From NCBI RefSeq assembly GCF_012163145.1, contig NZ_JAAVTX010000005.1, positions 372,001-436,000 of the forward strand: a DNA stretch of 64,000 nucleotides, given 5' to 3'. The DNA is from Falsiroseomonas frigidaquae. Its GTDB lineage: Bacteria > Pseudomonadota > Alphaproteobacteria > Acetobacterales > Acetobacteraceae. The translations under genes were made by a program, and so were the position numbers. Below the pieces are notes generated by a model. It was not told where the DNA came from, did no database searches, and worked only from the letters and a program-made list of their open reading frames with translations. Positions 1-8,027 of the stretch are shown here, piece by piece (the first letter of the stretch is position 1; every line of letters starts with the position of its first letter).

Positions 1-723
1 CGGCTGACGCTGAACCACGCCCGCCCGCTGCTGCCCGCGCCGCACCAGATCCTGGACGAGCTCTGGCGCAGCACCGCCACCCTGCCCGTCACCTCTCGCC
101 GCAGCCTGGTGCATCATGCCTGGGTGACGCTCTCCGCCGCGCTGGTGGGCTTCGGCATGGGCACGGCCATCGGCGTGCTGCTGGCCGTCGCGGTGGTGCA
201 TGTCCGCGCGCTGGAACGCAGCCTGATGCCCTGGATCGTCGCCTCCCAGGCCGTGCCGGTGCTGGCGCTGGCGCCGATCGTCATCGTGGCGCTCGGCGCC
301 ATGGGGCTGGAGGGGCTGCTGCCCAAGGCCATCATCGCCGCCTATCTGTGTTTCTTCCCGATCGCCATCGGCATGGTGAAGGGGCTGCGCGCGCCGGATG
401 CCATGGCGCGGGACCTGATGCGCACCTGGTCCGCGACCCAGGCCCAGGTGTTCTGGAAGCTGCGCCTGCCGGCCTCCCTGCCCTATCTGTTCGCCGGGCT
501 GAAGGTGGCGATGGCCGCGGCGGTAGTCGGCGCCATCGTGGCCGAATTGCCGGCCGGCGCGCAGGCGGGGCTGGGGGCGCGGCTGCTCGCGGGATCCTAT
601 TTCGGCCAGACCATCCAGATCTGGGCGGCGCTGGTGGCGGCGGCCATCCTCTCCGCCACGCTGGTCGGCCTGCTGGGGGCCGCGGAGCGCCTGGTGGCAC
701 GGCGCATGGGGGCACGGGCGTGA
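1..723 (+). CDS. ABC transporter permease, NitT/TauT/Ssu type (5' end outside window)
   Basis: Inner-membrane permease of an ABC importer. The reading frame is already open at base 1, so the N-terminus lies upstream of the window. Several hydrophobic helices are visible, and the BPD_transp_1 EAA-type cytoplasmic loop is clear (ARDLMRTW, then LRLPASLPYLFAGLKV), the site where the ATPase docks. It ends in a GTGA overlap with a second permease, which implies translational coupling and a two-permease channel. The ATPase gene is expected just upstream and is not in view. The substrate cannot be read from the permease; the neighbouring ring-opening amidohydrolase, amidase and nucleobase permease suggest an N-heterocycle (inference). 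Confidence 0.9.
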   Translation, partial: RLTLNHARPLLPAPHQILDELWRSTATLPVTSRRSLVHHAWVTLSAALVGFGMGTAIGVLLAVAVVHVRALERSLMPWIVASQAVPVLALAPIVIVALGAMGLEGLLPKAIIAAYLCFFPIAIGMVKGLRAPDAMARDLMRTWSATQAQVFWKLRLPASLPYLFAGLKVAMAAAVVGAIVAELPAGAQAGLGARLLAGSYFGQTIQIWAALVAAAILSATLVGLLGAAERLVARRMGARA

Positions 724-1637
724 CGGCGCTGCTGGCACTGGCCGTCGCCGCAGCCTTCGCGGCGCTGATCGCGGCGGTGCATGGCGGCGCGGCGGGCGCG
801 GCGGTCTGGGCCGGCGTGGTCCTCGCCACGGGCCTTGCCGCTTGGCTGGTGCAGCGCCTGGGCGATGCGCCGGAGCGGGGCCTGGCCGCGCTCGGCGCGC
901 CACTGGCCTTCGGCGCCACGGTGCTGGCCTTGTGGGAAGTGCTGGTGGTGGGCCTGGCGGTGCCCATGGTGCTGCTACCGGCACCCTCCGCCATCGCCGC
1001 GCGGTTCTGGCTGGCCGCGCCGATGCTCTGGGGCGATTTCACGCAGACCTTCCTGAAGGCCGTGCTCTCCGGCTATGCCATCGGCTGCGGGGCGGGCTTC
1101 GGGCTGGCGCTGGTGGCGGACCGCGTGCCCTTTCTGCGGCGCGGATTGCTGCCGCTCGGCCATCTGGTGGCGGCGCTGCCGGTGGTGGGCATCGCGCCGA
1201 TCCTTGCGATGTGGTTCGGCTTCGATTGGCAGTCCAAGGCCGCGGTCGTCGTCGCCATGACCTTCTTCCCGATGCTGGTGAATACCGTGGCGGGCCTGGC
1301 CGCCGCCGGCGCGCTGGAGCGCGACCTGATGCGCAGCTACGCCGCCAGCCCTGGCCAGACGCTGTGGCTGCTGAAGCTGCCCGCCGCCCTGCCCTTCATC
1401 TTCACCGCGCTGAAGGTCAATGCGCCGCTGGCGCTGATCGGCGCCATCGTCGCCGAGTTCTTCGGCAGCCCGACGCAGGGCATGGGTTTCCGCATCACGA
1501 CCGAGGCGGCAAAGCTCGCCCTCGACCTGGTCTGGGCGGAAATCGTTGTAGCGGCGGTTGCCGGTTCGGCATTCTACGGGCTGGTCGCGCTGGCCGAGCG
1601 CGCAGCCACCTTCTGGCACCCCTCGGCCCGCCCATGA
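720..1637 (+). CDS. ABC transporter permease, second channel subunit
   Basis: Second BPD_transp_1 permease, 305 residues. The GTG start at 720 overlaps the upstream stop (GTGA). An extra hydrophobic N-terminal segment of about 90 residues precedes the usual core. The EAA loop is present (ERDLMRSYAAS, then LKLPAALPFIFTALKV). It resembles its upstream partner in the core, as expected for a heterodimeric channel. The stop overlaps an upstream in-frame ATG of the binding-protein gene, so the three genes are one transcription unit. Systems with paired permeases and an NMT1-like receptor include pyrimidine-precursor and riboflavin importers; which one applies here is unknown. Confidence 0.9.
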   Translation: MTALLALAVAAAFAALIAAVHGGAAGAAVWAGVVLATGLAAWLVQRLGDAPERGLAALGAPLAFGATVLALWEVLVVGLAVPMVLLPAPSAIAARFWLAAPMLWGDFTQTFLKAVLSGYAIGCGAGFGLALVADRVPFLRRGLLPLGHLVAALPVVGIAPILAMWFGFDWQSKAAVVVAMTFFPMLVNTVAGLAAAGALERDLMRSYAASPGQTLWLLKLPAALPFIFTALKVNAPLALIGAIVAEFFGSPTQGMGFRITTEAAKLALDLVWAEIVVAAVAGSAFYGLVALAERAATFWHPSARP

Positions 1638-1654
1638 AAAGCAGGAGAGACACG

Positions 1655-2662
1655 ATGCGACGAAGCATTCTGGCCGGGCTGGTGGGCCTCGGCCTGCTGG
1701 CGGGTGCCGCGGCGGCTGAAGCCCAGGCCCAAGGGGTGGAGCGCGTCACGCTGCAATTGAAGTGGGTCACCCAGGCGCAGTTCGCCGGCTACTACGTGGC
1801 GCAGGCGCGCGGCATGTACCGGGCCGCCAATCTCGACGTCCGCATCAATGCCGGCGGGCCGGATATCGCCCCGCCGCAGGTGATGGCCGGTGGCCGCGCC
1901 GATGTGGTGGTGGAGTGGATGCCCGCCGCGCTCGCCAGCCGCGAACGCGGCGTGCCGCTGGTGAATATCGCGCAGCCCTTCAAGCAATCCGGACTGATGC
2001 TGACCTGCCGCGCCGAGACCGGCATCCGCACCCCGGCCGATCTGCGCGGCCGGACGCTGGGCGTCTGGTTCTCCGGCAATGAATACCCGTTCCTCGCCTG
2101 GATGGCGCGGCTGAACCTGCCGACCAATGGCACGCCGCAGGGCGTGCGCGTGCTGCGCCAGGGCTTCAACGTGGACCCGCTGCTGCAGCGCCAGGCCGAT
2201 TGCGTCTCCACCATGACCTACAATGAATACTGGCAGGTCATCGATGGCGGCTTCCGGCCGGACCAGCTCACCGTCTTCCGTTATGCCGACCAGGGCGTGG
2301 CGACGCTGGAGGATGGGCTGTACGTGCTGGAGAACCGGCTGAGCGACGCCGCCTTCGTCGCCCGCATGGGCCGCTTCGTGCGCGCCTCCATGCAGGGTTG
2401 GGACTGGGCGCGGCAGAACCCGGATGCGGCGGCGGCCATCGTGCTGGACAACGACGCCTCCGGCGCGCAGACGGAGGCGCATCAGCGCCGCATGATGGCT
2501 GAGATCGCCAAGCTGCTGGACACCACCGGCGGCGGCCGCCTGGACCCGGCGGATTACGAGCGCACGGTGCAGACGCTGCTGTCCTCGGGCGGCGAATCCC
2601 CCGTGATCACCCGTGCGCCGACCGGCGCCTGGACGCATGCGGTGGTGGACGCGGCGCGCTGA
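1655..2662 (+). CDS. ABC transporter substrate-binding protein, NMT1/THI5-like
   Basis: Periplasmic receptor of the importer, 335 residues. An N-terminal signal peptide (MRRSILAGLVGLGLLAGA, cleavage near AEAQAQ) is followed by the NMT1/THI5 signature LQLKWVTQAQFAGYYVAQ. The family includes ThiY (formylaminopyrimidine) and RibY (riboflavin) receptors, which bind ring compounds (established knowledge). An ATG at 1634 is in frame, but GGAGAG at 1643-1648 is correctly spaced for the ATG at 1655 and the signal peptide starts there. It is the last gene of the transport unit and converges on the ring-opening amidohydrolase only 6 bases away. Confidence 0.88.
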   Translation: MRRSILAGLVGLGLLAGAAAAEAQAQGVERVTLQLKWVTQAQFAGYYVAQARGMYRAANLDVRINAGGPDIAPPQVMAGGRADVVVEWMPAALASRERGVPLVNIAQPFKQSGLMLTCRAETGIRTPADLRGRTLGVWFSGNEYPFLAWMARLNLPTNGTPQGVRVLRQGFNVDPLLQRQADCVSTMTYNEYWQVIDGGFRPDQLTVFRYADQGVATLEDGLYVLENRLSDAAFVARMGRFVRASMQGWDWARQNPDAAAAIVLDNDASGAQTEAHQRRMMAEIAKLLDTTGGGRLDPADYERTVQTLLSSGGESPVITRAPTGAWTHAVVDAAR

Positions 2663-2668
2663 AGCGGT

Positions 2669-3736
2669 TCAGACAGCGCGGGCGAAGACGCAGACCAGGC
2701 CGCCACCCGGCGGCCCCTGATGCTCCGCCCCGCCACTGACAAAGACCTGCCCTTGGCCGGCGACACTGGCCACGATGGCGCCCAGGGCACCGCGCAAATG
2801 GCGCTGCGCATCCAGGTCCGTATCGCCCAGCATGGTATGGCGCGCACCGCGGATGGCGCCGGATTTCTCGGGCTCGCCCTTTGCCAGCACGCCGAGCACG
2901 CGCGCCCTTTGCGCGACAGGCACGGCGGGCGCGGCCGGAAGCCCTGCGGCATGAAAAGCAGCGACGACGCCATCCAGGTCCAGCAGATCCGCCATCGGCG
3001 CCACGCCCGCCGTCAGGCCCGGCGCCCAGCCATCGGCATGGCCGAAAACCAGCACCTCATTCGCCGTCACCTCGATGCCGGAGGAGATGCTGGCGCGGTT
3101 CGAATACTTGAGCAGATCGCGCAGCAGATCGTCCTCCGTCCCGTCCGGGATGTCGCCGAGCGCACGGCCGACGCCGAAGGCCGCGGCGGCGCGGGACAGG
3201 GCCATCAGAAGCCGTGGATCGCCGCTGCGGGCCTCCGGCCCAGGCGCCTGGGCACAGGGCGCCTTGACCTGCACCAGCACCACATCCTCCGCGCGCGTAA
3301 TGCCGGCATCCGCCATGGCATCGCGTACTGCCCGCGCGACCAATTCGATCTGCGCCTCGCGCCCGATATCGGCAGCGGGCGTGGGCGCGCTGAAGGCGGT
3401 GCCCAGCGCCAGACCGCGCGGGCCGGCAGCGGCGCGATCCACGGCGAAGACCAGGTAGTGCGGCGATAGCGCGCCCTCCGTCCCGCCAGACAGCACGCAG
3501 GGAATTCGCCCGGCGAGCGCCGCCAAGTCTTCGCCCGTCGCGCGTGACAGCAGCAGCATCAGCGACTGCGTGAAATAGCCACGGGTGAAGTCGTTCAGCC
3601 CGCCATTGCCCTCGGTCTTGCCGATCACCGCGCGGATCTCCGCGGCGCGGACCTCGCCGCGATCGATCAGCGCCGCCAGGGCCGAGAGGTCGCCCGGATG
3701 GGCCATGGGCAGGCGGTGGATGGCAAGGTTCGGCAT
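2669..3736 (-). CDS. ring-opening amidohydrolase (cyanuric acid hydrolase/barbiturase family)
   Basis: Hydrolyses one amide bond of a cyclic imide ring such as cyanurate or barbiturate. The 355-residue length matches the family (about 360). The three internally repeated domains each keep their Ser/Lys elements: GKTEGNG near residue 40 and LSGGTEG near 83; VQVKAP and NRASISSGIEV in the middle; AKGEPEKSG, RHTMLGDTD and VSGGAEHQGPPGGG near the end. A longer open frame runs upstream to 3907, but family alignment supports starting at MPNLAIHRL. It is divergent from the FAD monooxygenase with 66 bases between starts. Cyanurate versus barbiturate specificity cannot be decided by eye. Confidence 0.9.
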   Translation of the reverse strand: MPNLAIHRLPMAHPGDLSALAALIDRGEVRAAEIRAVIGKTEGNGGLNDFTRGYFTQSLMLLLSRATGEDLAALAGRIPCVLSGGTEGALSPHYLVFAVDRAAAGPRGLALGTAFSAPTPAADIGREAQIELVARAVRDAMADAGITRAEDVVLVQVKAPCAQAPGPEARSGDPRLLMALSRAAAAFGVGRALGDIPDGTEDDLLRDLLKYSNRASISSGIEVTANEVLVFGHADGWAPGLTAGVAPMADLLDLDGVVAAFHAAGLPAAPAVPVAQRARVLGVLAKGEPEKSGAIRGARHTMLGDTDLDAQRHLRGALGAIVASVAGQGQVFVSGGAEHQGPPGGGLVCVFARAV

Positions 3737-3802
3737 GCCGCGAGCATACTGCCTCTGGCGCGCCGATTGCACCGGCTTGCGCGGATTCTGGGGCGGCACT
3801 TC

Positions 3803-4945
3803 ATGCGGATCGGCATCATCGGCACCGGCGTTGCGGGCAGCCTGCTGGCGGAAGGCCTGCAGGGCTTCGACGTCACAGCCTTCGAACGTGTGGCACCCGG
3901 CGATCAAGCGGAATCCGGCACCGGCCTCAATATCGGTCCTAATGCGCTCAAGGCGCTACGCCTGCACATGCCGGCGCGCCATGCGGCCCTGCGCGCGGCC
4001 TCGCTGCCCTGGCAGCGCTGGTTCGTGGACCTGGCCGATGGCACGCGGCTGTTCGACCTGGACATGCTGGCGGTGGCGGAGGAGCCGGGCGTCCGTATTC
4101 GCTGGTCTGAACTCTACCGCCTGCTGCGTGAGCCCCTGGCCGGATTCACGCGCCATGGCCATGCGCTGGAGGCGCTCGAGGAAGATGCGGCAGGCCGCCT
4201 TGTCCCAGTATTCCGCACCGCGGATGGCCTGCGGCGCGATGGCGGCTTCGACCTGCTGGTCGGCGCCGATGGCCGCTACAGCCGGCTCAGAGCGCTGGCG
4301 GCGGGGGAACCACCCGCAACGCTGCTCGGGGTCTGCATCTGGCGGCTGCTGGTGACCGATGCGGCGGACTGCCCCTATGATGATTACGGCCAGTGGTTCA
4401 ATGGCAATGCGCGGCTGCTGTCCTTCCGTGTGCCGGGCGGCGCCGTCTACATTGCGGGCACCTTCCCCCTGCCTGCGGATGAGCGAATTCCAGAGGCGAT
4501 GAAGACAGGTGTGGCGCAGCGTGCCCTGTTCACGCCGAAGACGGGCGCGCCCTGTGCTGCCGTCGCCTGGATGCTGGCGAAGATCGACCAGCATGTGGCG
4601 CAGATTCATTGGGCCCGGTCCGCGGTCGTACCAGTCCTGCGACACGCGCTGGATGGGCGCGCCCTGTTCCTCGGTGATGCGGCGCAGGCGATGGTGCCCA
4701 CACTTGGCCAGGGGGCGACGCAGGCGGTGGAATGTGGCGTGGTGGCCGCACGCGTTCTGCGGGCCGGCGGCGACGCGGCGGCGGTCGCGGCTGCGCGGGA
4801 TTCGCGTGTGGCCTTTGTTCGCGACTTCTCCATGGCGGCGTCCGACACGCTGCTGCCGCCAGCAGACGTGGTGGCGGGCACGCGCCGCAAGATGCAGCCG
4901 GAATTCCTCAACCGGCTGCGGCAGCTCTACACAGAGGTGGATTAG
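3803..4945 (+). CDS. FAD-dependent monooxygenase (aromatic/heterocycle hydroxylase type)
   Basis: Flavoprotein hydroxylase of the PHBH/salicylate hydroxylase/HpxO class, 380 residues. It has an N-terminal Rossmann motif GIIGTGVAGSLLAEGL, a mid GADGRYSRLR (DG motif), and a second FAD motif FLGDAAQAMVPTLGQGATQ. The start is the ATG beside the N-terminal nucleotide fold; the frame extends further upstream without homology. The family hydroxylates aromatic rings or urate-like heterocycles using NAD(P)H. Divergence from the ring-opening amidohydrolase suggests it prepares a substrate for ring opening (inference). Its stop overlaps the tail of a degraded gene on the other strand. Confidence 0.85.
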   Translation: MRIGIIGTGVAGSLLAEGLQGFDVTAFERVAPGDQAESGTGLNIGPNALKALRLHMPARHAALRAASLPWQRWFVDLADGTRLFDLDMLAVAEEPGVRIRWSELYRLLREPLAGFTRHGHALEALEEDAAGRLVPVFRTADGLRRDGGFDLLVGADGRYSRLRALAAGEPPATLLGVCIWRLLVTDAADCPYDDYGQWFNGNARLLSFRVPGGAVYIAGTFPLPADERIPEAMKTGVAQRALFTPKTGAPCAAVAWMLAKIDQHVAQIHWARSAVVPVLRHALDGRALFLGDAAQAMVPTLGQGATQAVECGVVAARVLRAGGDAAAVAAARDSRVAFVRDFSMAASDTLLPPADVVAGTRRKMQPEFLNRLRQLYTEVD

Positions 4946-5266
4946 TGCCCGGACCCGTGCACGAAGCGATTCTCCAGCAGCAGGAAGGCGAGGTTCAGCA
5001 GGTGGCCGAGAGCACCCGCCACGAAGATCAGCGCAAGGGAAAACGCAGCCGTGCCTGCCCACCAGGATCTGCGGCAGCGCCTCCCGGATCAACACGTCCA
5101 CCAGGATCGGGGCCCGGGGAATGTCCATGATGCGGGCAGCCAGTACGCCGGTTCGGCGCACATTGATCATGCCATAGCGGCGTTGAACAGGTTGACCAGC
5201 CTGGCGCCGAAGGCGGTCACCGCGATCTTCGTGCCCTCTCCGGATAGGTACTGGGCACAAGGCGCC
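4942..5266 (-). pseudogene. degraded ABC permease relic (BPD_transp_1 family)
   Basis: This 400-base gap between two genes is not empty. Read on the minus strand in three successive frames, it yields pieces of a NitT/TauT permease: YLSGEGTKIAVTAFGARLVN, then after a frameshift ARIMDIPRAPILVDVLIREA followed by LPQILVG, then after a second shift a last membrane helix ending LLNLAFLLLENRFVHGSGH and a stop at 4942-4944. The order and the LPQILVG hallmark match the EAA loop and C-terminus of this family, but the segment between them is missing. Frameshifts plus an internal deletion make it a dead gene. Boundaries are approximate; the assignment is by eye. Confidence 0.65.
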
Positions 5267-5369
5267 GCTTCCGGAGACGGCGCATAGACGGCGCCACATG
5301 ATTGACAGGGTCTCGCGCTGACGCGCCCCATCAGATCGGATCATGGCACGGACAAGGAACGACATCAGC

Positions 5370-6626
5370 ATGACCGACATCCCGGCCCTGCTCGAGCGCA
5401 TCGCAAAGCATGATGGGGCGATCGGCGCCTTCTGGCAGGTGGATGCGACAGGCGCCCTTGCCACGCCGCCGCGTGGCGAGGGCCCGCTGCGCGGGGTTGC
5501 CATCGGCATCAAGGACAATGTCGACGTCGCCGGGTTGCGGGCCACAGGCGGCATCGCGGCCTTCCGTGACGTGGTGGCGACGCGGGACGCGCCCTGCGTA
5601 CGGGGGCTCCGCGAGGCAGGGCTGGTGATCCTCGGCAAGCTGGCGATGCATGAGGGCGCGCTGGGCGCGACGACGGATACGCCAGGCTTCGGCCGCTGCA
5701 TGAACCCGCTGCGTGCGGGCTTCACGCCCGGAGGCTCCTCCGGCGGCTCCGGTGCCGCGGTTGCGGCCGGCTTCGTGCCGCTCGCCGTGGGAACGGACAC
5801 GATGGGCTCCGTCCGCATACCCGCCGCCTATTGCGGCGTCACCGGTCTGAAGCCGACGCGCGGCCTGATCGGGCGCAGCGGCGTGGTGCCCCTGTCGCCG
5901 ACGCTCGATCATGTCGGCGTGCTGGCGAGCACGCCGCGGCTGGCCGGGCTCGCGCTTCAGGCGATGGCGGCGGATGACCCGGCAGACCCCGCCTGGCGCC
6001 CTGCGCCAACCGGCTGGCAAGCGGTTCCGGATGGGCCGCCGCGGCTGGCAGATCTGCGGATCGGCCTGCCGGAGCCCGTCCTGGCCGCGACGATGGAGCC
6101 GGTCCTGCGCGCCGCTTGGTTGGCGGCGGCCGCACGGTTACGCGCAGCGGGCGCGACAGTGGAGCCGGTGGCGATGCCGGAATGGGACCCCGGCGCCGCC
6201 CGCCGCGCCGGGCTGCTGCTGCTGGAGGCGGAAGCCGCCGTGCTGCATGCGGCGCTGATCGACGACCCGGCGGCGGCCAGCCCCGATTTCCGTTCCGCGC
6301 TGGCCTATGGCCGCGATGCAGGCACGGCGCGGCTGGTGCGCGCCCTGTTCCGCCTGGAGGAGGTCAAGGCGGCAACGGTGCGGGCGCTCGACCGGTTCGA
6401 CCTTCTTCTGATGCCCACCGCGCCGCAGCGCGCCTTTGCCCATGGCAAACCTGCGCCGGTGGATCAGGCGGATTTCACAGCCCTCGCCAATTTCGCCGGC
6501 CTTCCGAGCATCGCTCTGCCATGGCCCGCGGAGGATGGCGGCCTGCCCGCCTCGGTGCAACTCGTCGGCCACCCCTATGCCGAGGCGCTGCTGGTGGGCG
6601 TGGCGGAGGCGCTGGACGGAGCGTGA
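5370..6626 (+). CDS. amidase-signature family hydrolase
   Basis: Cytoplasmic amidase of about 418 residues. The Ser-cisSer-Lys triad is visible: Lys in GIKDN (about residue 48), cis-Ser in GGSSGGSGAA (about 124) and nucleophile Ser in DTMGSVRIPAA (about 147). The family includes AtzE (1-carboxybiuret hydrolase), ureidomalonase and allophanate hydrolases, which act directly after ring-opening amidohydrolases (established knowledge). That makes processing of the ring-opened product the likely role here (inference). An in-frame ATG at 5343 is possible; the ATG at 5370 has AAGGA about 11 bases upstream. No AtzG-like small partner gene was seen. Confidence 0.85.
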   Translation: MTDIPALLERIAKHDGAIGAFWQVDATGALATPPRGEGPLRGVAIGIKDNVDVAGLRATGGIAAFRDVVATRDAPCVRGLREAGLVILGKLAMHEGALGATTDTPGFGRCMNPLRAGFTPGGSSGGSGAAVAAGFVPLAVGTDTMGSVRIPAAYCGVTGLKPTRGLIGRSGVVPLSPTLDHVGVLASTPRLAGLALQAMAADDPADPAWRPAPTGWQAVPDGPPRLADLRIGLPEPVLAATMEPVLRAAWLAAAARLRAAGATVEPVAMPEWDPGAARRAGLLLLEAEAAVLHAALIDDPAAASPDFRSALAYGRDAGTARLVRALFRLEEVKAATVRALDRFDLLLMPTAPQRAFAHGKPAPVDQADFTALANFAGLPSIALPWPAEDGGLPASVQLVGHPYAEALLVGVAEALDGA

Positions 6627-6716
6627 GGCGCGGGCCCGGCCCGCGGCGCAAGCCTGCCCGCACGGCGAGCCCCAAGTCTCTACAATCATAGCCCTGGAAG
6701 CTAGGGTCGGGCTGAA

Positions 6717-8027
6717 ATGCAGCAGCCGGAGTCGTCCCGCATGGATCGCTTCTTCGAACTCACCGCGCGGGGCACGACAACCCGCACCGAGATCCTCGCG
6801 GGCCTCGCGACCTACCTAACCATGGTCTACATCGTGGTGGTCAACCCCTCGATCATGGCTGCAGCGGGCATCGACCCGGGGGCGGCCTTCGTCGCAACCT
6901 GCCTGGCGGCCGCCATCGGCAGCCTGCTGATGGGGCTGCTGGCGAATTTCCCCATCGCGCTGGCGCCGGGGATGGGGCTCAACGCCTATTTCGCCTTTGC
7001 TGTCGTCGGTGGCATGGGCATTCCCTGGCAGGTAGCGCTCGGCGCCGTCTTCGTCTCCGGCCTGCTGTTCTTCCTGGTCTCCGTCCTGCGGATCCGGGAA
7101 TGGCTGGTAAACGGCATCCCGATGTCGCTGAAGCTGGGCATTGCCGCGGGCATCGGCTTCTTCCTGGGCCTGATCGGACTGCGCGGCATGGGCGTGGTGG
7201 TCGACAATCCGGCAACACTGGTGGGCCTCGGCCCGCTTTCCACGCCGGCCACGCTGATCGCCTGCGGCGGCTTCGTGCTGATCGCGGGGCTGGTGGCGCG
7301 CGGTGTAACCGGGGCGATCGTGATTGGCATCCTCATCACCGCCGCGGCCGGGCTGCCTTTCGGACTGACGGAATTCCACGGCATCGCCTCCCTGCCCCCC
7401 TCCCTGGCACCGACCTTCCTGCAGATGGACATCGCCGGGGCGCTCGGCATCGGTCTGGTCGGGATCGTCTTCACCTTCTTCCTGGTGGATCTGCTGGATA
7501 ATACCGGCACGCTGATCGCCACCACGCACCGGGCAGGCCTCATGAACCGCGACGGGTCCGTGCCGCGGCTCGGTCGCGCACTGATGGCGGATTCGGGGGG
7601 CGCGATGATGGGCGCGGCGCTCGGCACATCCACCACCGTCTCCTATATCGAGAGTGCCGCCGGCATCCAGGCCGGCGGGCGCACCGGCCTGACGGCGGTG
7701 ACGGTGGCAGGACTGTTCCTGCTGACCCTGTTCCTGGCCCCGCTGGCCGGCTCCATCCCCGGCTTCGCCACGGCGCCGGCGCTGGTCTTCGTCGCCTGCC
7801 TCATGGCCAAGGGGCTGCAGGACCTGGCATGGGACGACACCACTGAATACCTGCCGGCGATCCTGACGGCGCTGGCGATGCCCTTCACCTTCTCCATCGC
7901 CACCGGGATCGGCCTCGGCTTCCTCAGCTATGCGCTGGTGAAAACCCTGGCCGGCCGGGCGGGGGAGGTGCATGGCGCGGTCTGGCTGCTGGCTGCGCTG
8001 TCGGCGGTGAAGTTCGCCCTCGGCTGA
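6717..8027 (+). CDS. NCS2 family nucleobase permease (AzgA-like)
   Basis: Inner-membrane proton symporter, 436 residues, about 12-14 membrane segments. AzgA/PbuG-subfamily signatures are present: TEILAGLATYLTMVYIVVVNP at the N-terminus, APGMGLNAYFAF, and in the second half FTFFLVDLLDNTGTLIA and LGTSTTVSYIESAAGI. Known members take up adenine, guanine or hypoxanthine. It follows the amidase by 90 bases, which places a second ring-compound transporter in this block. Substrate is inferred at subfamily level only. Confidence 0.9.
   Translation: MQQPESSRMDRFFELTARGTTTRTEILAGLATYLTMVYIVVVNPSIMAAAGIDPGAAFVATCLAAAIGSLLMGLLANFPIALAPGMGLNAYFAFAVVGGMGIPWQVALGAVFVSGLLFFLVSVLRIREWLVNGIPMSLKLGIAAGIGFFLGLIGLRGMGVVVDNPATLVGLGPLSTPATLIACGGFVLIAGLVARGVTGAIVIGILITAAAGLPFGLTEFHGIASLPPSLAPTFLQMDIAGALGIGLVGIVFTFFLVDLLDNTGTLIATTHRAGLMNRDGSVPRLGRALMADSGGAMMGAALGTSTTVSYIESAAGIQAGGRTGLTAVTVAGLFLLTLFLAPLAGSIPGFATAPALVFVACLMAKGLQDLAWDDTTEYLPAILTALAMPFTFSIATGIGLGFLSYALVKTLAGRAGEVHGAVWLLAALSAVKFALG

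Follow-up and report, generated by a model that had tools for sequence, protein, structure and literature searches.

Gene content of the locus

The DNA analyzed here, hereafter the window, is a stretch of 64,000 nt from Falsiroseomonas frigidaquae, which we examined together with same-contig DNA upstream of it (segments L009 and L010). The first 8 kb of the window carry permease and binding-protein genes of an NMT1/THI5-like ATP-binding cassette (ABC) importer, designated ABC-A, followed by genes for an AtzD-family ring-opening hydrolase, a flavin monooxygenase (FMO), an amidase-signature hydrolase, and an AzgA-like permease (Table 1). A preliminary description of this DNA had joined all five into one pathway for an N-heterocycle. 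Our analysis makes it probable, if by a modest distance, that window positions 1-4945 form the right half of a conserved module for oxidative N-heterocycle degradation, with import, hydroxylations, and ring opening.

The family assignments of the preliminary description were borne out by profile searches (Table 1), with the importer's ATPase located upstream of the window, beyond what that description covered; the decayed permease fragment in Table 1 had gone unmentioned in it. "Divergent" was an apt word for the FMO, since its PF01494 score barely exceeds the cut-off of 22 bits. The nucleobase permease was matched by PF00860 only, and by no NCBIfam family at E 0.001.

The importer genes belong to a longer run that starts outside the window. 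Genes for the flavin adenine dinucleotide (FAD), 2Fe-2S, and large subunits of a molybdenum hydroxylase, whose ends overlap or touch, are followed in the same direction by the importer ATPase, permease 1, permease 2, and NMT1-type binding protein genes. The molybdenum hydroxylase genes, the ATPase gene, and the start of the permease 1 gene lie upstream of the window; the start codon of the latter and its overlap with the ATPase gene are visible in L009. The best model for the large subunit was NF040766 (carbon monoxide dehydrogenase [CODH] group 5), at 919.5 bits versus a cut-off of 950. The AtzD-family gene is convergent to this run, and the FMO gene then follows. The unit comprises window 1-4945 and the 4.6 kb directly upstream. 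Permease 2 is 90% identical to its counterpart in locus L049 and 62-68% identical to those in Bradyrhizobium loci. In pairwise comparisons with L049, the ratio of nonsynonymous to synonymous substitution rates (dN/dS) was 0.051 for the binding protein, 0.142 for the hydrolase, and 0.127 for the FMO.

Table 1. Genes and remnants in the first 8 kb of the window
Feature	Position (window)	Strand	Basis
ABC-A importer permease 1	1-723, cut by window edge; 5' end L009 9857	+	PF00528 (BPD_transp_1) 83.4 bits
ABC-A importer permease 2	720-1637	+	PF00528 (BPD_transp_1) 68.7 bits
ABC-A NMT1/THI5-like substrate-binding protein	1646-2662	+	PF09084 116.5 bits
AtzD-family ring-opening hydrolase, clade B	2669-3736	-	PF09663 Amido_AtzD_TrzD 358.2 bits
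HpxO-like class A flavin monooxygenase (FMO)	3803-4945	+	PF01494 23.5 bits
Decayed, frameshifted C-terminal remnant of ABC-B (second importer) permease	~4940-5241	-	tblastn, DNA identity
Amidase-signature hydrolase	5343-6626 (start maybe 5370)	+	PF01425 299.8 bits
NCS2/AzgA-like permease	6717-8027	+	PF00860 Xan_ur_permease 156 bits

Linkage of the hydrolase and monooxygenase genes

We compared the best 80 of 84 loci chosen by AtzD-protein similarity alone, from Acetobacteraceae, Burkholderiales, Bradyrhizobium, and others, inspecting flanks of at most 10 kb. An FMO of the window's kind (39-89% identical) was present in 75 of the 80 loci, within 3 kb of the hydrolase gene in 71, and among loci of at least 20 kb it was found in 64 of 65. 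At twenty of the loci detected with the other AtzD type (8-kb flanks where the contig allowed), no FMO was found. Further partners were a vicinal oxygen chelate (VOC)-fold protein (56 loci) and a second ABC importer (50 loci). Amidases of any subtype flanked 50 of the 80 loci and mostly belonged to another subtype than the window's; a LysR regulator occurred in 34 (two of them distant, at 27-30%), an AtzH-like protein in 22, and the window's own importer type in 17 (one distant, at 31-33%). One of the AtzH-like proteins scored 207.6 bits on the HpxZ model (cut-off 135). His18, His89, and Glu135 of the VOC protein were kept in 34 of 34 aligned sequences; the His/His/Glu triad of VOC-type proteins binds metal. 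The molybdenum hydroxylase was found in only 30 of the 80 loci, and we therefore treat it as an extension of the module and not as part of its core. In Bradyrhizobium, a molybdenum hydroxylase (large subunit, 71-74% identity) and an NMT1 importer (ATPase, 72-75% identity) stand beside the AtzD and FMO genes in a different gene order.

The association extended to whole genomes. In a family sample of 249 genomes that includes the source genome, the AtzD family was found in 47 and the FMO in 26, with both in 23 of these 26 (Fisher P = 1.7e-16); by genus, 11 of the 12 FMO genera fell among the 23 AtzD genera of 102 (P = 8e-8). A class sample of 385 genomes held AtzD in 22, including all three with the FMO (the source genome and two others). 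Among the 23 genomes with both genes, eight had the window-type hydrolase and fifteen, by identity (45-50%), only the type of the cyanuric acid hydrolases (CAHs); for ten of the fifteen, the tree described below also placed the hydrolase in the CAH clade. We also compared 18 FMO loci without the window-type hydrolase (the FMO locus of G238 lies outside those compared). Of these, 8 carried the VOC gene (one at 34% identity), 4 the second importer, and 3 a molybdenum hydroxylase of a different kind.

Several observations count against our reading. Five of the 80 loci lack the FMO (L053, L058, L061, L062, and L113), and of these four are shorter than 16 kb and L061 is full length; in four more loci the FMO lies 3.4-5.1 kb from AtzD. 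The molybdenum hydroxylase is a close match in 28 of its 30 loci and a distant one in two (29 and 37%). Three FMO genomes (G059, G161, and G186) have no AtzD match, and the co-occurrence of the two genes is partly phylogenetic, kinship and genome size being only partly controlled. The source genome itself has no match to the VOC gene at E 1e-10; since the permease of the second importer is also decayed, the module is perhaps incomplete here. Taken together, the data support the view that the importer, the hydroxylase, and the ring-opening hydrolase are one functional unit. To that extent the preliminary pathway stands, through the 75 of 80 loci and Bradyrhizobium.

The AtzD-family hydrolase forms a sister clade of the cyanuric acid hydrolases

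A quick-method tree of 110 AtzD-family proteins (open reading frames [ORFs] below 330 amino acids left out) divided them into clade A, with 30 rows, and clade B, with 80 rows including the window protein, at a support of 100. Clade A holds four CAHs of known structure (Moorella, TrzD, Azorhizobium, and AtzD), and the window hydrolase does not group with them; its clade is sister to theirs. In a second tree, also by a quick method and with two distant relatives as the outgroup, each of the two clades remained single, at 0.86 and 0.91. Because clade A rows came mainly from one family and clade B rows were collected by similarity to the window protein, the split is valid for this sample. The 80 rows of clade B and the 80 loci are different sets, and two pairs of rows are identical (L056/L171 and L115/L170).

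The window protein retains the three Ser-Lys dyads (K40, K156, K285, S79, S226, and S333, in the numbering of the structure 4nq3), as do all 80 clade B rows; these residues, along with Arg52, Arg314, and Glu230, are invariant across all rows of both clades. The published features of a CAH include two arginines, AtzD R194 and R324, and the C-terminal motif SGGXEXQGPXGGGP (PMC9118981). Both aligned arginines are present in the window protein, and Arg188 and Arg314 are conserved in 73 and 80 of the 80 clade B rows, respectively. The motif departs at its last residue, Pro346, a proline in all 30 rows of clade A and a leucine in all 80 of clade B. Position 310 is Gln throughout clade B; in the Azorhizobium structure, a Thr there contacts a water above the bound ring (PMC4051656). 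Positions 55, 78, 189, 227, and 315 differ too in most clade B rows. The same paper defines barbiturases by a Gln in place of Arg188 (PMC4051656), and the window protein has Arg. On the equivalog model of the CAHs, NF052395, it scored 379.5 bits, above the cut-off of 360. Since the catalytic residues are kept and Pro346Leu, Gln310, and the other positions differ, we read the clade B hydrolase as an enzyme whose substrate has probably changed to another of the same general shape.

Seven clade B rows (L057, L064, L069, L070, L087, L115, and L170, of which the last two are identical) depart from this pattern, with Val at Arg188 and Ala at Glu337. They are Roseomonas-type hydrolases from loci without the VOC gene or the second importer, and their substrate may have changed again; we count them against our reading. 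Six loci (L089, L103, L105, L108, L051, and L104) contain both clades together, which suggests that a ring is opened twice, in succession or in parallel. The AtzD-like proteins at L243 1036-2106 and L245 1098-2261 (39% and 33% identity to the window protein) form a distant third group; they carry an STGCEG motif and end in GGGL or GGGI. A Group V enzyme of Azorhizobium caulinodans is reported to use neither cyanurate nor barbiturate as a substrate (PMC3758960); a clade B gene occurs in Azorhizobium doebereinerae (L112).

The monooxygenase is a distant relative of HpxO

The closest Protein Data Bank match of the FMO was HpxO (3rp6, E 4.4e-14), a distant relationship. We aligned the window's FMO with 55 others, out of 94 found (ORFs outside 370-420 amino acids were excluded). 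The residue aligned with HpxO Arg204, which we take to be the one that activates urate, was kept in 55 of the 56 sequences, and Tyr216, which we assume also has a role in HpxO, in 54 of 56. As controls we used eight other flavoproteins of the same genome, the ones out of 17 loci to match the FMO profile; because several of them are only remotely related, their alignment is rough. Arg204 was found in none of the eight, two being gapped there, and Tyr216 in one. The deposited structure 3rp8 differs from 3rp6 exactly at Arg204. The third position compared, Asp293, which presumably matters in HpxO, is Thr in all 56 FMOs, and on the HpxO model NF033623 the window protein scored 58.6 bits versus a cut-off of 500. 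Both results tell against our reading, and because of the Thr we do not claim the FMO as a urate hydroxylase.

The amidase and AzgA-like permease probably reached the module by deletion

We compared the first 14 kb of the window with Roseomonas oleicola (G231) and Falsiroseomonas tokyonensis (G639) and found positions 1-5030 to be collinear with both. Beyond 5030 come 226 bases left from the permease of the second importer and then the amidase gene; in the two relatives the amidase lies 17-18 kb from the FMO and the AzgA-like permease ~6 kb further on, after which collinearity resumes. The permease remnant has 80-84% DNA identity to L043 and L049 and, by tblastn, is broken over two frames. We infer two deletions, one that would have brought an orphaned amidase close to the FMO and a second that would have brought the AzgA-like permease; the decayed remnant and the gene order shared by the relatives point to deletion here and not to insertion elsewhere.

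The context of the amidase in the same genus agrees with this history. Fifteen other genomes were searched, and the 12 with a long match were compared (G630 had a weak 356-base match, and G635 and G637 had none). In 11 of the 12, the amidase closes a different operon, behind genes for a PaaK-like ligase and for MmgE/PrpD- and CaiB-like proteins; five also show a gene like those for acyl-CoA dehydrogenases. These names, and that of a nearby "TRAP" transporter, were read from translations, with no family search. G095 keeps the amidase-ending operon although no AtzD or FMO match was found there. The exception, G636, has VOC, amidase, and permease genes in a row at a contig end, an apparent intermediate. 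No AzgA-like permease match was found in the flanks (at most 10 kb) of the 80 loci. Thus, the amidase and the AzgA-like permease are probably not members of the module, and their adjacency to it arose through deletions. By the refutation test set in the preliminary description, whether related genomes keep the genes together, the left part of the set stands and these two genes do not.

We also considered the amidase as the module's ancestral ureide hydrolase in this genus and rejected the idea, since it ends a different operon in the relatives. On the AtzE model TIGR02715 it scored 178.4 bits versus a cut-off of 425.75. Pairwise dN/dS values, with one relative each, were 0.227 for the amidase and 0.203 for the permease. 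Low as they are, these ratios and those of the hydrolase and the FMO are no proof of a module in working order at present, because most of the history they record may predate the deletion.

Neighboring genes and downstream capacity

A nucleoside 2-deoxyribosyltransferase-like gene (L009 4746-5345, minus strand; PF05014, 112.1 bits) is divergent from the molybdenum hydroxylase genes. It recurs near that enzyme in 11 of the 80 loci, all of them Acetobacteraceae/Roseomonadaceae records. Farther upstream, L009 480-4111 and L010 15484-16476 encode a Rieske oxygenase (LigXa_C domain), a ferredoxin reductase, a Gfo/Idh oxidoreductase, and a dihydroxyphthalate decarboxylase-like protein, the last named by reading its translation, with no family search. 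This looks like a separate phthalate-type set. The first three genes have close matches (81-96%) in L043/L226 and L049 and are absent from L048, L050, and L051, though their flanks extend beyond the deoxyribosyltransferase-like gene; the flanks of other relatives end too early to show them. We considered these three as module parts and set them aside for their phthalate-type look and patchy presence.

Elsewhere in the source genome, an allophanate hydrolase-type match (526.1 bits, above the cut-off) lies on the upstream side of the window, at a distance of ~47 kb; its aligned stretch contains one stop, and its C-terminal part was matched separately. The genome further contains three AtzH-like genes and two PF00576 (5-hydroxyisourate hydrolase family) genes; no match to 2-oxo-4-hydroxy-4-carboxy-5-ureidoimidazoline (OHCU) decarboxylase was found in it.

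A proposed pathway and its alternatives

In the pathway that we propose for the module, the NMT1-type importer would take up a ring compound, to which the CODH-like molybdenum hydroxylase would add an oxo group adjacent to a ring nitrogen. The HpxO-like FMO would then hydroxylate the resulting acidic oxo-ring, using Arg204 as in HpxO, and the AtzD-type hydrolase would open a trioxo six-membered ring hydrolytically by means of its Ser-Lys dyads. The ureido product may be processed, in other taxa, by an amidase together with an AtzH-like protein. As the substrate we tentatively favor a pyrimidine-trione of the barbiturate class, hydroxylated at C5 before opening, which is a guess.

The clade B enzyme might instead be another CAH, supplied by an FMO that produces cyanuric acid, for instance from a triazine carboxylate such as oxonate, through oxidative decarboxylation. 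The retained dyads and arginines and the NF052395 score fit such an enzyme, as do the 15 of 26 FMO genomes whose only AtzD is of the CAH type and the occurrence of both clades in six loci. However, those same two-clade loci also argue for two separate jobs, the replacements at Pro346 and position 310 hold in every clade B row, and the oxonate route is our own speculation, on whose terms we found no paper; we regard this reading as rather doubtful. Alternatively, the molybdenum hydroxylase could yield a urate-like compound that the FMO hydroxylates at C5 and the clade B enzyme opens at the six-membered ring. Such a purine pathway would account for the conserved Arg204 and Tyr216, for the HpxZ/AtzH-like gene in 22 loci, and for the deoxyribosyltransferase-like gene beside the molybdenum hydroxylase in 11, but we hold it to be unlikely: Asp293 is replaced, the three-fold AtzD site would seem to suit a trione better than 5-hydroxyisourate, and the two PF00576 genes elsewhere would make a second 5-hydroxyisourate opener unneeded, although the OHCU decarboxylase match is absent.

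The five-part pathway of the preliminary description, which counts the amidase and the AzgA-like permease among its members, is the least credible of these. Both genes are adjacent to and co-oriented with the FMO gene here, and amidases, if mostly of another subtype, do flank 50 of the 80 AtzD loci. Against this, orthologues of the amidase stand at the end of a different operon in 11 of 12 genomes, including G095, where no AtzD or FMO match was found, and the permease lacks a match in any of the 80 flanks and stands behind a junction marked by a decayed remnant; we consider full membership highly improbable.

Significance and relation to known systems

The sister clade is large and, across several proteobacterial orders, linked to an HpxO-like oxygenase. 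This offers a probable natural setting for the AtzD fold, and it supplies, in the FMO, a partner enzyme whose product is identifiable in vitro. The locus also illustrates that a tight gene block can originate by deletion. More speculatively, and with less confidence than in the module itself, clade B and the FMO could represent a natural, pre-industrial pathway in which the FMO would make a trioxo ring (cyanuric acid or a 5-hydroxy pyrimidine-trione) for opening by the AtzD fold. If so, the Toblerone fold would gain a natural role beyond barbiturate, and FMO genomes with only a CAH-type AtzD would produce cyanuric acid as an ordinary metabolite. A 2025 study reports cyanuric acid from the secretions of Paramecium (PMC12342508), and on that account the natural side of this compound is now open. 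Among the matches listed in a literature search, the titles and abstract beginnings did not describe an AtzD-FMO-VOC module; most subscription journals lie outside the coverage of that search.

Four known systems resemble parts of the module. The atzDGEHF operon of Pseudomonas sp. ADP shares the AtzD-fold opener, and the Burkholderiales loci add amidase, AtzH-like, and LysR genes to the likeness. The module differs from that operon in the presence of the FMO, the VOC protein, and, in part, the molybdenum hydroxylase, in the sister-clade position of its hydrolase, and in its amidases, three of which (window, L063, and L115) scored far under the AtzE cut-off. Clusters with atzG-atzE/atzH in Bordetella and Achromobacter are described as containing a monooxygenase and a flavin mononucleotide reductase, no AtzD being mentioned (PMC6219798); they are alike in having an AtzH-like gene and an amidase near a monooxygenase. 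The oxidative pyrimidine route (barbiturase and ureidomalonase) matches the proposed sequence of oxidation, AtzD-fold opening, and amidase, but our hydrolase has Arg at 188 in place of the barbiturase Gln and is accompanied by an FMO. Finally, the module has in common with the Klebsiella hpx purine cluster an HpxO-like FMO and, at some of the loci, a protein resembling HpxZ/AtzH, whereas the FMO described here falls far under the HpxO model cut-off and is paired with an AtzD-fold opener.

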